Origin: a virus
Reading direction: 5' to 3' (one strand)
Virus record (IMG/VR): IMGVR_UViG_3300045999_006615
Location: 1-22,519 of that record
Length of the DNA stretch: 22,519 bases
In this document: positions 9,227-21,997 of the stretch, in pieces
How the letters are laid out: each line of letters begins with the position of its first letter
Numbering within the stretch: the stretch's first letter is position 1
Notes under the pieces: model-generated
What the model saw: only the letters and a program-made list of their open reading frames with translations
The model's database searches: none
Told to the model about the DNA's origin: nothing
Program-made: the position numbers and the translations under genes

Positions 9227-9679
9227 ATGATAGAAACAACCGAGGCGCCTGCTAAGAAGAAAGCAGGACGGCCGAAAGGCGTCAAGAGAAGCGTAAAGAG
9301 ACTCACACAAGGCGAGCTCGCCCTGGCTGTATTAGACTCAGCGCGCGGCATACCTCAGCACCAGATAGCTAAGAAGTTCGGGGTAGGTGAAGCCGCCATC
9401 TCGATGATATTGGATAAATTCAAGCCGGCCTTTGCTGAGCTGCAGAATGTTGAGGAATATCGCAAGGCTAAAGCTTCGCTGCTCGATAGTGCATCGCTCA
9501 CAGTTTTGAAGGAGATAGTAAATCCGGTCAAGATAGAAGCCGGTGACGTTCGCGCGCTTGCGACCACCTACGACATTCTCAACAAACACTCGAGACTCGA
9601 GCGCGGAGAAAGCACTAGCAACGTCAGCACCCAGTCTATTCAGGTGACAGTATCAGGTGACGATTACGCCGAACGATAA
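9227..9679 (+). CDS. terS: Small terminase subunit candidate
   Basis: The 150-aa product opens with a basic tail (KKKAGRPKGVKRSVKR), then an HTH-like segment (SARGIPQHQIAKKFGVGEAA, residues 39-58), a helical region (EYRKAKASLLDSASLTVLKE) and DILNKHSRLERGESTSN with a polar tail. HTH plus helices plus an LERGEST-type segment is typical of phage small terminases that recognise packaging DNA. The GGAAGG upstream touches the ATG with no spacing, an odd RBS, yet no other start exists in frame. The gap to the large terminase is about 1.7 kb, far more than usual. An HTH regulator is the alternative. Confidence 0.65.
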   Translation: MIETTEAPAKKKAGRPKGVKRSVKRLTQGELALAVLDSARGIPQHQIAKKFGVGEAAISMILDKFKPAFAELQNVEEYRKAKASLLDSASLTVLKEIVNPVKIEAGDVRALATTYDILNKHSRLERGESTSNVSTQSIQVTVSGDDYAER

Positions 9680-9778: not shown

Positions 9779-9847
9779 GCGCGCGTGCGTGCGTGCCTGC
9801 CTGCGTATGTGTGAGCGTGTGTGTGCGCGCGTGTGTGTGCGTGCGCG
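9779..9847. repeat. Alternating purine-pyrimidine tract (Z-DNA-prone)
   Basis: The tract is nearly all GC and GT dinucleotides. It includes an unbroken alternation of 33 bases at 9815-9847 and another of 18 bases at 9779-9796. Such sequence can flip to left-handed DNA under negative supercoiling. It is followed at 9864-9887 by a G-rich run. The 9680-9945 gap holds no convincing ORF. Confidence 0.8.
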
Positions 9848-9945: not shown

Positions 9946-10425
9946 TTATAGCGGCGCTCTCGTTCTTTTATTTCGCCACGGCTGTTTCCCTCGGCGCCTG
10001 ACAATTTGCTTTACAGTGCAGTGTGTCCAGGGGTTAGCGCCAGTCTTAGTCTTTACCCCCATAGCTGTTAAGCGGGCAGCAATCTCTCGGAGCGAAACTC
10101 CCATTAGTCGCCAAATTATCACCGTTTTGACAACGTGCCATTCCTCCGGAATCCAGGCAAGGCGACGGTTGGGAGTTAGCTTATATCCGTATGGGATATG
10201 CCCTCCGGTCCACTGCCGTTTAGCTCTCATGCGGAGGGTGCGCTGTTTAGCCAGCTCGCCAGTTTTCCAATACCCTTTTTCGCCGTGAGCTTTTGGGTGG
10301 CAGTGGCCACATAGTGGGACTGTTTTTTTACCGCCGAGAGATTGTGGGACAACGTGATGGTTGTAGCTAGCTGGCTCGCCACATTCAAAGCACTGTTTGT
10401 TTTGATCAGATTGCAGGATCTTTAT
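9946..10425 (-). CDS. HNH nuclease fused to recombinase-type DNA-binding domain
   Basis: The minus-strand frame from 10425 encodes about 159 aa. Residues 12-47 carry an HNH finger: CFEC, YNHHVVPQSLGGKKTV, then PLCGHCHPKAH, giving four Cys and the catalytic His region. After the linker (about 66 onward) comes GGHIPYGYKLTPNRRLAW, VSLREIAARLTAMGVKTKTG and PWTHCTVKQIVRRR, the signature of the C-terminal domain of large serine recombinases, here without the catalytic domain. No ATG, GTG or TTG lies between the upstream in-frame TAG and residue 1. The codon at residue 1 is ATA (then AAG ATC CTG); an SD (AGGAG) sits before it, with best spacing to ATC 10419. An internal ATG at 10230 would lose the HNH domain. 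It may be a free-standing homing endonuclease. Confidence 0.65.
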   Translation of the reverse strand: MKILQSDQNKQCFECGEPASYNHHVVPQSLGGKKTVPLCGHCHPKAHGEKGYWKTGELAKQRTLRMRAKRQWTGGHIPYGYKLTPNRRLAWIPEEWHVVKTVIIWRLMGVSLREIAARLTAMGVKTKTGANPWTHCTVKQIVRRRGKQPWRNKRTRAPL

Positions 10426-10504
10426 ATCTCCTACCTACCTATCTCTTCTAGCTTCTCTGTCAGACGTACGCATCTACCAGCTATCTACGCCTACCTATGC
10501 TCTC

Positions 10505-10960
10505 ATGGGGTGCATGACTAGGAAGTATAGTTTGGGATCGCCGTCTCCAACTAGGGATTCAGCGAAGTCCAAGCTATACAGTAACCGTCAGATGACTGAG
10601 GTTTGTGAAGTTGAGCCTTGTTGCCAAGGTAGGATGGTTAGAGTCCTCCCGTTTAGTCTCTGTCTGGTCGCCCTTGTCCTCGCCACTTGGATGCTCATGT
10701 TTCAGGCATCTGGCCATCGTAACCAAGTTACTGGGTACGACTACTCTATCCGACCTAACGGATAGCTTCAGAGGGGTTCACTAACTCAAGTCTCCAATGC
10801 TCTCCACCAACACTGGGACTTCGCGGGTCGGCAAAAACAATTAAACCGTTGCCGTGAGAGGGTCTGCCTGTCACCCCGGAGCTTACGCTTACCGGGCGCT
10901 CTATGTAGTAGTTTGAAGCTCAGTATGCTGACTACCCGCCACATACGTCGAAGCTGTCAG
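10505..10960. ncRNA. Candidate structured RNA region, strand not fixed
   Basis: The 10426-11072 interval has no convincing gene but several strong inverted repeats. GTATAGTTTGG pairs with CCAAGCTATAC (10525-10579, eleven pairs, with inner TCGC/GCGA). CTATCCG pairs with CGGATAG (10746-10765). CGGCAA pairs with TTGCCG (10829-10854) and CCCGG with CCGGG (10875-10896). Both of the last two are enclosed by a split helix, CTTCG-CGGGT (10819-10828) with ACCCG (10934-10938) and CGAAG (10949-10953). Nested helices inside a closing stem are typical of folded RNA. No known class (tRNA, group I intron, riboswitch) was matched. Confidence 0.3.
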
Positions 10961-11008
10961 AAGTTTACCACAGGTCTGTAGTAATTCGTCCAGTAAAAAA
11001 GAGTGTTT

Positions 11009-11043
11009 TTTTTGCCGGTATTTTTGCCGGTGTGAATTACAAT
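11009..11043 (+). promoter_or_regulatory. Direct repeats and possible promoter of the packaging operon
   Basis: TTTTTGCCGGT occurs twice with a 12-base period (11009-11019 and 11021-11031), followed by TACAAT at 11038-11043. A TTGCCG/TACAAT pair has a 20-base spacer, longer than ideal, so the promoter call is weak. The repeats may bind a late-gene activator. Confidence 0.3.
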
Positions 11044-11072
11044 AGCGCTTGGGGGAATTTTGGTGGGAGTGA

Positions 11073-11423
11073 TTGGAGGGATTGGGAGCGCAGGATAAGG
11101 GGCAGGAAGAGATCAAGTTAATCTTCCCCGTAGAGTTTGGGGAGCTGATAAAGAAACAACCGGAAGCGAAGCTTTGGGCGTATTGCTTGACTCAGGCGAT
11201 AGCGACTGCCGTAGGGAGTTTTAGGACTAAGGACTTACGGGCGTGGGGTAGTCGTGACCGGTATTGGCTATTACAGGACAAGAGACATTACGTTGGGAGC
11301 TGTAGTTGGATTTGTGAGGTGCTGGGGATAGACCGGAGGAAGCTTATCCGGCATGTGATTAGAAACCGTCATACACTGAAGAAAAACCCTTACGTTTTAA
11401 GGATTCAGTATAATGACCAGTGA
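11073..11423 (+). CDS. Hypothetical protein preceding large terminase (116 aa)
   Basis: The likely start is TTG 11073, four bases after GGGAG; no ATG is available. The protein has a short N-terminal acidic part, then strongly basic helices (RTKDLRAWGSRDRYWLLQDK and IDRRKLIRHVIRNRHTLKKN) at residues about 50-105, suggesting nucleic-acid binding. The WICEVLGIDRRKLIRHV segment could be part of a helix-turn-helix. It overlaps terL by 11 bases. A basic DNA-binding protein next to terL could itself be the small terminase subunit, which makes the terS call at 9227 less certain. No family is recognised. Confidence 0.6.
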   Translation: MEGLGAQDKGQEEIKLIFPVEFGELIKKQPEAKLWAYCLTQAIATAVGSFRTKDLRAWGSRDRYWLLQDKRHYVGSCSWICEVLGIDRRKLIRHVIRNRHTLKKNPYVLRIQYNDQ

Positions 11424-13035
11424 GAAGGCCCCAGCGTTAGAGATAGATGGGATTAAGTGGGACCCTGCACCTGGGATTCGCTACGCCTACGAGTATGAGC
11501 GTTTCTTTCGGGACTGGAAGGCTAAGGGCGCTACGTTTGAGAACTGCTGCCGCTGGATGCTCCAGAACGACCTGTGGTTCCTACTGTACTTTGGGATGAG
11601 GGTATCGATAGCTAACCACCCCTGGTGGGTGGATTGCTGCTTTGATGTGCAGTCGGGACCAAAGAGCCACACGCTAGATTTGTGGAGTCGCGAACACGGA
11701 AAGACCACCATCATCACTCAAGGCGAGACTATCAGGCAGATACTAAAGAACCCGGAGGAGAGGATAGGAATCTTCTCGTACTCGAGGCCAGCGGCGTTAT
11801 CCATCTTGCGCGGTATTAAGCAGATACTTGAAGGGAGTGCCCTATTAAAGGCTTGCTTCCCCGATATTTTGTATCAGGAGCCCAGGACCCAGGCTGAGAA
11901 GTGGAGCGAGACTGACGGGCTTATAGTGCAGCGTAAGGGCTTTTATAAGGAGGCTACGCTAGAGGCTTGGGGATTGGTTGAGGGTATGCCGACCGGTAAG
12001 CACTTTAGTGGCCGGGTGTACGACGACGTGGTGACTGCTGACTTGGTGAACAGTCCCGATGTTATGGCGAAGCTAAAGGATAGCTTTGACATGTCTCAGA
12101 ACCTTGGAACGATTGACGGGTGGCATAAGGTTATTGGCACGACGTACCACCATGAGGACCTGCTGGTTAATCTGAGGAACAAGGTTACGGCTGACGGAAA
12201 GCCTGTTTATCTGACACGGGTCAAGACCGCTACAGTTGACGGCACGCCTAACGGGAAGAGTGCTTATCTGCCAGAGGAGCGGTTAGCTGAGCTTAGGATT
12301 AACAAGCAGATGTTCTATAGCCAGCAGTTGTTGGACCCAACGCCTCAAGGAACCCAGAAGCTTGATAAGGATATGCTAAGGGAGGTGACTCCGGCTGAGA
12401 TTCCACAGCGGTTATTTAAGTTCATGGCGATTGACCCGGCGGGGGAGAGGAAGAGTGATAAGCGGCAGGGAGACTCGTGGGCGATAGTGGTGGCTGGGGT
12501 TGAGCCCTTTAGAGATGACCTTGGAGCCAGCCGAGTTTACATCCTGGATATGGTTGTTGAGCCGATGACTGAAGCCGAGGCACTGGACGCAATCGTTCGG
12601 GTGTTTTTAAGGAACGGGCAGATAAGACAGATTGGCGTGGAAAAAGTCGGCATTAGTACCGCTGAAGTGCACATTGCAAAAGCCTTACATGCCCGAAACA
12701 GAAGTCTTACAGTGGAAAACAAGGGCCTTGTTGTGCTTAGACCGGGCGGTAGAAGCAAGCAACAGCGAATTGAGTCAGCATTACAATGGCCTTTGTTGAA
12801 CGGAAAGTTACATATCAGCACGGCTGTTCCCAACGCTTACAGGGAAAGATTGAAATTAGAGATGCAGCGCTACCCTTTCTATCACGATGATGCACTGGAT
12901 GCCGTGAGCTACATCTACGATATGTGTAAGGACTTTCGTTTCGGAAACTTTGTCACCTCTGATGAGGAGGACAAGTGGGCTAATAAGTTTGGGCAGAAGA
13001 AGCAAGGTGGCCCTGATAGTTGGTTGTACGTATGA
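11413..13035 (+). CDS. terL: Terminase large subunit
   Basis: This 540-aa ATPase-nuclease packages DNA into the prohead. Motifs in order: a Walker A variant SREHGKTT at 92-99, Walker B around GRVYDDVV (200-207), the IGTT coupling motif (241-244), and the RNase H-like nuclease with D341 in FMAIDPAG, the acidic E410 in IGVEKVGIS and the D492/D493/D496 cluster in FYHDDALDAVSYI. The length is normal. AAGGA nine bases before ATG 11413 serves as SD inside the upstream gene. The portal ATG overlaps its stop (ATGA), the usual packaging-gene order. Confidence 0.92.
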   Translation: MTSEKAPALEIDGIKWDPAPGIRYAYEYERFFRDWKAKGATFENCCRWMLQNDLWFLLYFGMRVSIANHPWWVDCCFDVQSGPKSHTLDLWSREHGKTTIITQGETIRQILKNPEERIGIFSYSRPAALSILRGIKQILEGSALLKACFPDILYQEPRTQAEKWSETDGLIVQRKGFYKEATLEAWGLVEGMPTGKHFSGRVYDDVVTADLVNSPDVMAKLKDSFDMSQNLGTIDGWHKVIGTTYHHEDLLVNLRNKVTADGKPVYLTRVKTATVDGTPNGKSAYLPEERLAELRINKQMFYSQQLLDPTPQGTQKLDKDMLREVTPAEIPQRLFKFMAIDPAGERKSDKRQGDSWAIVVAGVEPFRDDLGASRVYILDMVVEPMTEAEALDAIVRVFLRNGQIRQIGVEKVGISTAEVHIAKALHARNRSLTVENKGLVVLRPGGRSKQQRIESALQWPLLNGKLHISTAVPNAYRERLKLEMQRYPFYHDDALDAVSYIYDMCKDFRFGNFVTSDEEDKWANKFGQKKQGGPDSWLYV

Positions 13036-20072: not shown

Positions 20073-21497
20073 ATGCCAACCGTCAAGATTCCCATCTTTG
20101 CTCCGGTTCAGAAGGGCGTAGACGGTATAGAGCTTACCGATGAGAACTTCTCGCTTTTTGATGGATACCGCACTCTAGGCGGTGGAACAATAAAACGACC
20201 TGGCTCAAAGGCTATTTTTACCGCTAGTGCTGCTACTGGCGTTGGCGTCGACGGGTTATTTTATTGGGCAGAAAAAGATGTAGTGATGATGGTAGCTGGC
20301 GGGGATATCTATCAGCTCACATACGTATCTAATACCCCAGTAGTTACCAAGCTAACTACTACGCCGCTTCTCAATCAAGGCACACCCGTATCGATGGCAG
20401 TGGATGGAACTAACTTCTATTGTGCTAACGGCGGTAGGATTGTCTATACTCCAATAAGCGGCACTCCTGCTTACATAGCAGACCCAGATGCTCCGACTAC
20501 GGTAAGTCAGATTGCTTTTGTTGATGGCTATATTCTTGCAATAGACAATACCAATAAGTTCTATGGGTCTGACGTCAACGCAGGAACTAGCTGGAACGCT
20601 CTTTACTTTGCTTCTGCCGCTGGTAGTTCCGACCTTATCTCAGCATTAAAGGTCTACAATAGAGAGGTCTATTTGTTCGGCCAGCGCAGTATTGAGATAT
20701 GGGAAAACGATCCAACGTTATTGTTTCCATTTGTACGAATCCCTGGCGGCTTTATTCAATCTGGCTGCTCTGCGCCTCACGCAATTATTGAGGATGAGAA
20801 TAGTCTTTACTGGCTAGACGATAAGCGTAGGCTGGTTCGCTTTGCAGGTAAGAGCGTTGAAAGGCTAAGCACTAAGTTTGATAGAGAGCTTCAGGGCTTG
20901 AGTAAAGTCTCAGATGCTATCGCTCAAAAGATTCAGATTGATGGCTACGTATTCTTTATATTCTCGTTCCCGTTTGATGGCAGGACTCTTGTATATAACC
21001 AGACAGTCGATGACTGGGGCGAGTGGGGTAAGTGGAATTTAGCAGACGCCAAGTACGAAAGATGGGTTGGCAACTGCTATACGTATGCTGAGAAGTGGGG
21101 ACTTCACCTTATAGGGCGCAGGAATACTCAGCAGGTATGCAGCCTAAGCAAGAACCACGCCGATGACGATGGCGACATCATACGGCTAGCAAGAACTACT
21201 GGTCACATTGATAACGGTTCGTCTCAGACTAAGCAGTGTAACGAGGTGCGGTTTCGAGCAAAGAGAGGCAAGGGATTATCGGGTAGGACTCCTAAGCTGA
21301 TGCTCAGGTACAAGCTAGACAATCGCTCGTGGTCAAACATTAAAGAGTTCTCTCTAGGCGATATAGGTGAGTACGACCTGGTTTTAAGAGACTTACGACG
21401 CCACCAGTACAGAACTAAGCAGTATGAGTTCACGGCTACGGATGCGGTAGACGTAGTGTTCTCGAACGCTGAGGAAGATGTAGAGGTGCTTCGATGA
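20073..21497 (+). CDS. P22 gp10-like tail (DNA-stabilisation) protein
   Basis: The 474-aa protein is nearly the length of P22 gp10 (472). It opens VKIPIFAPVQKGVDGIELTD and contains repeated beta-propeller-like blades (YRTLGGGTIKRPGSKAIFTA, GVDGLFYWAEKDVVMMVAGG, MAVDGTNFYCANGGRIVYTP, LYWLDDKRRLVRFAGKSVER). The gene lies between fibre and collagen-like genes. gp10 closes the portal-adaptor channel and is part of the tail hub. GGAGG occurs about fourteen bases before the start, a poor spacing. Its stop overlaps the next start (ATGA). The family call rests on the opening motif, length and neighbours. Confidence 0.8.
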   Translation: MPTVKIPIFAPVQKGVDGIELTDENFSLFDGYRTLGGGTIKRPGSKAIFTASAATGVGVDGLFYWAEKDVVMMVAGGDIYQLTYVSNTPVVTKLTTTPLLNQGTPVSMAVDGTNFYCANGGRIVYTPISGTPAYIADPDAPTTVSQIAFVDGYILAIDNTNKFYGSDVNAGTSWNALYFASAAGSSDLISALKVYNREVYLFGQRSIEIWENDPTLLFPFVRIPGGFIQSGCSAPHAIIEDENSLYWLDDKRRLVRFAGKSVERLSTKFDRELQGLSKVSDAIAQKIQIDGYVFFIFSFPFDGRTLVYNQTVDDWGEWGKWNLADAKYERWVGNCYTYAEKWGLHLIGRRNTQQVCSLSKNHADDDGDIIRLARTTGHIDNGSSQTKQCNEVRFRAKRGKGLSGRTPKLMLRYKLDNRSWSNIKEFSLGDIGEYDLVLRDLRRHQYRTKQYEFTATDAVDVVFSNAEEDVEVLR

Positions 21498-21997
21498 CGA
21501 TAAGACGCCCTCCAAGAGAGTCTACTGACAGCTTTCGAGATAGGAAGTGGAAGGAACAAGCCTTCTATGACGCAAACCGTCCAACCGGCGCACAGGGTAT
21601 TCAGGGTCCCCCAGGTCCAGCAGGTCCAACAGGTCCTCAAGGTCCAACAGGTCCACAGGGTCCACAAGGTCCGGCAACGGTAACGGTTGGCACGACAACA
21701 TCCACAGCATGGGGCAATCCTCCAACAGTAAGCAACGGTGGCACCAGTGGGAATGTAGTGCTGAATTTCGTTATTCCAGAGGGGCCTCCTCAAGAAGAGG
21801 AACCCGGCCCGGCGTTTACCTACACTTCTGGGCTTGTAACCAGGATTGATTACGACAGCGGCAACTACAAGGTGTTGACCTACACAAGCGGGGTGCTCAC
21901 TCAGGTCGATTATCACAGGGGGACTTCGATAATAAGAAAGACATTCTCCTATAACGGAGATGGAACATTAGCCGAGATAGTTCAGACGACGTTGTGA
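21494..21997 (+). CDS. Collagen-like virion protein
   Basis: This 167-aa protein has a basic N-terminus (TIRRPPRESTDSFRDRKWKE), then about ten G-X-Y triplets at residues 32-60 (GAQGIQGPPGPAGPTGPQG...), a short Thr/Gly-rich segment ending in VVLNFVIPEGPPQ, and a beta repeat region with two YTSGxxTxxDY units before the end FSYNGDGTLAEIVQTTL. G-X-Y repeats form triple helices, so the product is probably trimeric and sits on the tail. The beta units resemble RHS/YD-like fibre modules. The ATG overlaps the gp10-like stop. The host-binding or structural role is inferred. Confidence 0.75.
   Translation: MTIRRPPRESTDSFRDRKWKEQAFYDANRPTGAQGIQGPPGPAGPTGPQGPTGPQGPQGPATVTVGTTTSTAWGNPPTVSNGGTSGNVVLNFVIPEGPPQEEEPGPAFTYTSGLVTRIDYDSGNYKVLTYTSGVLTQVDYHRGTSIIRKTFSYNGDGTLAEIVQTTL

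Follow-up and report, generated by a model that had tools for sequence, protein, structure and literature searches.

Large noncoding RNAs of phages include GOLLD and ROOL, which are probably the nearest in kind to the RNA reported here. GOLLD, first named from lake and Lactobacillales sequences (PMC12286853), is a large multidomain noncoding RNA of phages and prophages with no known function, and ROOL is likewise a large structured RNA borne by phages. Both form nanocages, and the function of both is still open (PMC12286853). The two are unrelated to each other and occur in similar settings.

We examined a gene-free interval in a phage DNA stretch of 22,519 bases (the window), which is the whole of an IMG/VR virus record. 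As shown below by covariation, without transcript data, the interval holds a genuine large structured RNA, previously undescribed, which we call type A. It has the multidomain character of GOLLD, yet many GOLLD RNAs exceed 800 nt (PMC12286853), whereas type A has about 450 nt, and no Rfam covariance model matches it. GOLLD lies near tRNAs; type A lies beside a terminase gene, and a scan of the 22.5 kb window, and of the window only, found no tRNA or tmRNA. The same absence of an Rfam match and of nearby tRNAs in the window separates type A from ROOL, for which a location near tRNA islands is typical, not obligatory. A preliminary description of the interval had likened it to GOLLD and ROOL. 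The comparison holds well as regards size, setting, and complexity; membership in either family is not supported, and type A most likely belongs to neither. A second RNA, type B, occupies the same place in related phages, and the pair recalls GOLLD and ROOL as two unrelated RNAs in similar settings. Few bacterial or phage RNAs reach such size and complexity, and the locus appears to add two families at once to the large structured RNAs known from phages, with their interchange as its unusual feature.

Gene neighborhood, homologues, and coding potential

On its plus strand the window has genes for a terminase large subunit, a P22-like portal, a major head protein, and a tail-fiber-type protein that includes an S74 chaperone domain. 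The minus strand carries genes for recombination and replication, together with an integrase and an anti-restriction-like protein. Around the interval, the order is a plus-strand HTH-type ORF (9227–9679), a minus-strand HNH gene, the gene-free interval itself, and a plus-strand ORF of 116 aa (11073–11423). The HTH-type ORF, possibly the small terminase subunit, has likely counterparts in L005 and L031. The 116-aa ORF is conserved upstream of the terminase gene, with relatives in L006, L007, and L031, and has no family match in Pfam or PHROG. Two repeats were also seen: a GT/GC-rich microsatellite of GCGT-type units (9779–9845) between the HTH-type ORF and the HNH gene, and a collagen-like Gly-Pro repeat (unit GGTCCA/CCA, 21602–21676) inside a structural ORF (21494–21997).

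Relatives of the locus were located by scanning with the terminase large subunit protein (11413–13035, plus strand; phrog_38, E = 1.8e-45). Type A RNA was found in eight further phage contigs from metagenomes, upstream of the same terminase genes, giving nine distinct loci (the window, L003, L004, L006, L007, L013, L016, L017, and L020; L016 is identical to L015 at this locus). The terminase proteins at these loci are 65–88% identical to that of the window. At the DNA level, identities are 65–85% for the terminase gene and 71–87% for the RNA core, and the RNA is the more conserved of the two in 35 of 36 phage pairs. The difference is wide for L003 and L013 (82% for the RNA, 65% for the terminase gene); the sole exception is L020 with L006 (82.0% vs 82.4%). 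The sample nevertheless comprises only nine sequences, two of which, L006 and L007, lie above the stated range with RNA cores 98.7% identical.

Outside this group, four sequence patterns drawn from the conserved core of the DNA matched viral contigs only within the same lineage. Type A RNA was not found in 50,697 phage records or a plasmid collection, and searches of cultured phages, plasmids, and GTDB genomes found it in none. The pattern scan of GTDB contigs returned one hit (L028), located where a transporter-like gene ends and apparently due to chance. Rfam 15 contains no family that matches at gathering score, and relaxed scans (E up to 3–5) of the window and homologues L006, L013, and L017 gave only weak, chance-like hits. 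No description fitting the locus appeared in the titles and abstracts of the open-access literature searched, in which GOLLD, ROOL, and HEARO were found.

The interval codes for no protein. A frame of 86 codons at 10505–10765 contains a membrane-like stretch in the window and has no Pfam or PHROG match; in the homologues it is broken by stops and by insertions or deletions of 1–2 nt, which are frequent among them, and the longest open stretch they keep in this frame is 32–64 codons. No frame on either strand stays long in all homologues. The preliminary description had found no convincing gene here, and this held.

Compensatory changes and architecture of the type A RNA

The interval had also been described as holding at least five inverted repeats, including an 11-pair stem at 10525–10579, and as a possible new structured RNA. 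The stem and several other inverted repeats are present, the stem as part of the consensus structure. Inverted repeats alone are weak evidence, and single-sequence folding energy only modestly beats that of shuffles: z = −2.7 (plus) and −2.4 (minus) for the whole interval against 20 shuffles, −1.5 for the core of the window alone (minus, 60 shuffles), and −1.5 to −4.5 for the cores of eight homologues (minus, 60 shuffles each). The case for a real structured RNA is decided by covariation.

In a plain MAFFT alignment of the nine sequences, the minus-strand consensus comprises 132 pairs in 25 helices, with 95.3% of cells paired and two-sided (compensatory) changes in 41 pairs. When partners were slid by 1–3 columns, only 33–40% of cells were paired and 3–8 pairs showed two-sided changes; shuffles gave 20 such pairs. 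With a tree-aware null modeled on R-scape, 15 of the 132 pairs are significant at E below 0.05. For this test, the variable hairpins at about 10690–10765 had been realigned by hand, which favors them, and 11 of the 15 significant pairs fall outside. Both tests were applied to the same sequences from which the structure had been derived. Variation is almost absent from the helices that close the central and 3′ domains, and their pairs fit the model without being proven by covariation. Overall, the compensatory base changes exceed the controls and meet the criterion for a structured noncoding RNA.

The new-RNA claim is accordingly supported by covariation in homologous regions. Two of the checks proposed with it gave results: covariation analysis, which found compensatory changes, and an Infernal search of Rfam, which returned no match. 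On the sequence evidence, the outcomes named as refuting it did not arise; no conserved protein comes from 10505–10765, and folding beats shuffles, if modestly. The preliminary description had reported no tRNA or group I intron pattern, which held in a tRNA scan and Rfam scans, and it lacked three elements given here: which strand encodes the RNA, that a second RNA type can replace it, and that it does not depend on the HNH gene.

The structured RNA is very likely read from the minus strand, on sequence evidence of three kinds: consensus energy, an excess of G–U pairs, and GNRA loops. RNAalifold on the plain MAFFT alignment gives −210.6 for minus and −193.7 for plus, and two other alignment versions agree (−216 vs −198 and −240.6 vs −224.0). 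Where both strands are predicted to form a helix, the minus reading has 45 G–U and 16 A–C cells. One hairpin carries a GCAA, GAAA, or GCGA loop in all homologues on a stem that varies in sequence and length, a second carries a GUAA loop, and two more have GNRA-like loops in part of the homologues; as read from the alignment, GNRA loops appear on the minus strand only. A plus-strand RNA was rejected for its worse energy, wobble pattern, and loops. The assignment remains short of certainty because a few pairs are better on plus (pair 497/539 and one helix).

The same observations bear on an explanation in which the inverted repeats act as DNA, as a packaging site, an origin, or a recombination hot spot. 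Packaging sites often lie near terminase genes in phages, and the segment does recombine, as described below. A preference for G–U over A–C on one strand would be unexpected for DNA, as would RNA-type GNRA tetraloops kept on variable-length stems of one strand, and we consider a DNA element very unlikely, the least probable of the alternatives.

The RNA likely spans about 10515–10960, or roughly 450–500 nt, in a multidomain fold, although no transcript data are available, and it stops short of the minus-strand HNH gene. Its core was taken as 10505–10975 (minus strand; paired region 10518–10955), with support from the nine homologues, covariation, the lack of a conserved ORF, and RNAalifold. 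All of its parts are given on the minus strand. At the 5′ end is a hairpin domain (10917–10955; 10952–10955 paired with 10917–10920 and 10938–10946 with 10923–10932), in which 7 of 13 pairs show two-sided changes. The central multibranch domain (10780–10912), on which covariance model R1 was built, is closed by a helix (10905–10912/10780–10787) that is invariant and hence without support from covariation. It contains hairpins at 10875–10896 (GUAA loop) and 10854–10874 and a 13-pair hairpin at 10788–10821. A split closing helix around two inner hairpins had been proposed for 10819–10953, which held in part, as the arrangement differs slightly: the helix pair 10897–10899/10823–10825 and 10852–10853/10826–10827 encloses the hairpins at 10875–10896 and 10854–10874, and 10917–10955 forms a separate hairpin.

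Three hairpins follow (10746–10765, 10713–10744, and 10690–10710), the stems of which vary strongly yet compensate and which have GNRA-like loops in several homologues; at pair 322/333 of the hand-improved alignment, all four Watson–Crick types occur. The 3′ domain (10518–10682) is closed by a helix of 10677–10682 with 10518–10523 and, in the consensus structure and by covariation, includes the long hairpin at 10525–10579 and the hairpin at 10616–10629, in which the invariably GNRA-type loop is GCAA, GAAA, or GCGA.

Two short direct repeats are found in this part of the RNA, at 10592–10601 (CCTCAGTCAT, minus) and 10514–10522 (CCTAGTCAT, minus), of the form CCTCAG(TCAT) and CCTAG(TCAT), respectively. 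The same letters change in step in each lineage in all type A homologues, with the variants TCAT, TCAC, TGA, ATGA, and ATGG among lineages. No complementary partner for the repeats was found inside the RNA, even with G–U allowed. Because they change together without an internal partner, they could have a common outside partner or form a switch.

Exchange of type A for type B RNA

Three relatives, L002/L005, L019, and L031, carry another gene-free stretch of similar size at the same place, in which no resemblance to type A could be detected across the RNA. In the sister phages L002/L005, the alignment to the window breaks off at 10420 and restarts at 10964. The exchanged segment, 10421–10963, is the RNA itself.

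Type B likewise folds better in consensus on the minus strand, where the structure comprises 127 pairs with 94.1% of cells paired. Two-sided changes occur in 26 pairs in three sequences, compared with 2–5 when partners were slid. Type B is therefore likely, in the absence of transcript data, to be a second, unrelated structured RNA and a candidate new family. Distant homology of the two types was considered and rejected: profile matches are confined to the shared flanks, and model R1 detected type A neither in G002 (40.9 kb) and G003 (30.4 kb), two longer records with type B, nor at any other locus to which it was applied.

The terminase tree joins L002/L005 with the window, L019 with L007, and L031 with L017, in each case as sisters. 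Type B is nested at three places, and about three or more replacements must therefore have occurred. Because both types occupy exactly the same spot, we infer that they may do the same job. A bolder reading is that both large RNAs, though unrelated, serve interchangeably in one phage machine, for example as a packaging-associated or cage-forming RNA, with two architectures selected for one slot that recombination swaps. We offer both this reading and the choice of machine tentatively, as less likely than not. The phages that carry A or B, with genomes no smaller than about 40 kb, present a natural swap between RNA families. This swap is a built-in equivalence test, in that B should do whatever A does, and a shape or partner common to both points to function.

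The HNH gene and possible roles of the RNA

Downstream of the RNA on the same strand lies an ORF (about 9946–10434, minus) for an HNH endonuclease of about 160 aa, which matches HNH and Recombinase/integrase models, the latter a DNA-binding type of domain. The ORF is open, yet it has no in-frame ATG, GTG, or TTG before the conserved region; the start position is GTG in L005 and ATG in L006. A rare start codon, decay, or an assembly error could account for this. The HNH proteins fall into two subtypes with a common HNH part and different C-terminal parts (L006, L017, L019, and L020 vs the window, L003, L004, L005, and L016), and the Recombinase model PF07508 matches those of the window and L016 and not that of L006.

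This arrangement raises the possibility of a selfish unit in which a ribozyme, leader, or guide-like RNA serves the endonuclease. In its favor, the RNA lies directly upstream of the HNH ORF, on the same strand, at all type A loci as well as at L002, L005, and L019. Against it, L031 keeps type B RNA without the HNH gene, HNH relatives occur in other phages without the RNA, either HNH subtype pairs with either RNA type, and conservation of the HNH gene is much lower than that of the RNA. Partnership with the HNH gene is not obligatory for the RNA, and a selfish unit of this kind is unlikely; the gene is best regarded as a neighbor, perhaps one that promotes exchange of the locus, which is an inference.

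Two specific forms of this idea are also improbable. In the HEARO/omega-RNA of IscB–IsrB, a structured RNA likewise lies directly upstream, on the same strand, of an HNH-type nuclease gene. The protein here differs in pairing HNH with a Recombinase-type domain in about 160 aa, without a match to any RuvC model, and is not IscB/IsrB; type A has no HEARO match in Rfam, and the RNA and the HNH gene each occur alone. With a group I intron and its homing gene, the locus shares GNRA loops, a multihelix fold, an HNH gene alongside, and a short motif (CAGAGACTAAACGGG) resembling the P7 region. AGAGACT is invariant, but its candidate P7 partner, AGTC, becomes AGAT or AGTG between lineages. No Intron_gpI match was obtained at E up to 3–5 and no interrupted gene was seen, and a group I intron was rejected.

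A role in DNA packaging, in which the RNA would build or assist the terminase motor as phi29 pRNA does, whether structurally or as a cofactor, is also a doubtful explanation. Every type A and type B copy adjoins the terminase gene, conservation is strong, and phi29 pRNA is likewise a phage RNA encoded beside packaging genes. The pRNA has about 170 nt and is known from phi29-like phages; type A is about 2.5 times larger, comes from an unrelated phage group, and has no pRNA match in the Rfam scans. The argument rests on position alone, and a long gene-free interval is missing from that place in a distant relative whose terminase is 29% identical.

Alternatively, the minus-strand RNA, or its complement within the plus-strand late transcript, could be a cis-acting or antisense regulator of late gene or HNH expression. 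Its antisense position within the plus-strand gene order, from the HTH ORF to the 116-aa ORF, would fit. The size and number of compensated helices go beyond the needs of an antisense RNA, the GNRA loops show that selection acts on how the minus RNA itself folds, and its place can be taken by an unrelated RNA, all of which make a regulator unlikely.

We favor, by a modest margin and without transcript data, a large phage RNA comparable to GOLLD and ROOL that is free-standing, acts in trans, and is read from the minus strand. The fold, its conservation, its strand (by the sequence evidence), and the A/B interchange are shown. The remaining steps are inferred: transcription would start near 10990–11020 and head toward the HNH gene, and, during infection, its three-dimensional shape would be what allows the RNA to act in trans. 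It may work alone or as an oligomer, by analogy with what is thought of GOLLD and ROOL, although there is no evidence for an oligomer or for a binding partner. Types A and B would be functional equivalents.

A run of A followed by a run of T lies just 5′ of the RNA (10992–11016, minus strand) at type A and type B loci alike, in 11 of 12 loci, and is absent from L031. No sigma-70-like promoter was found at this motif on the minus strand, and we infer that it could be a start or processing signal. In L013, the motif occurs twice upstream of the RNA.
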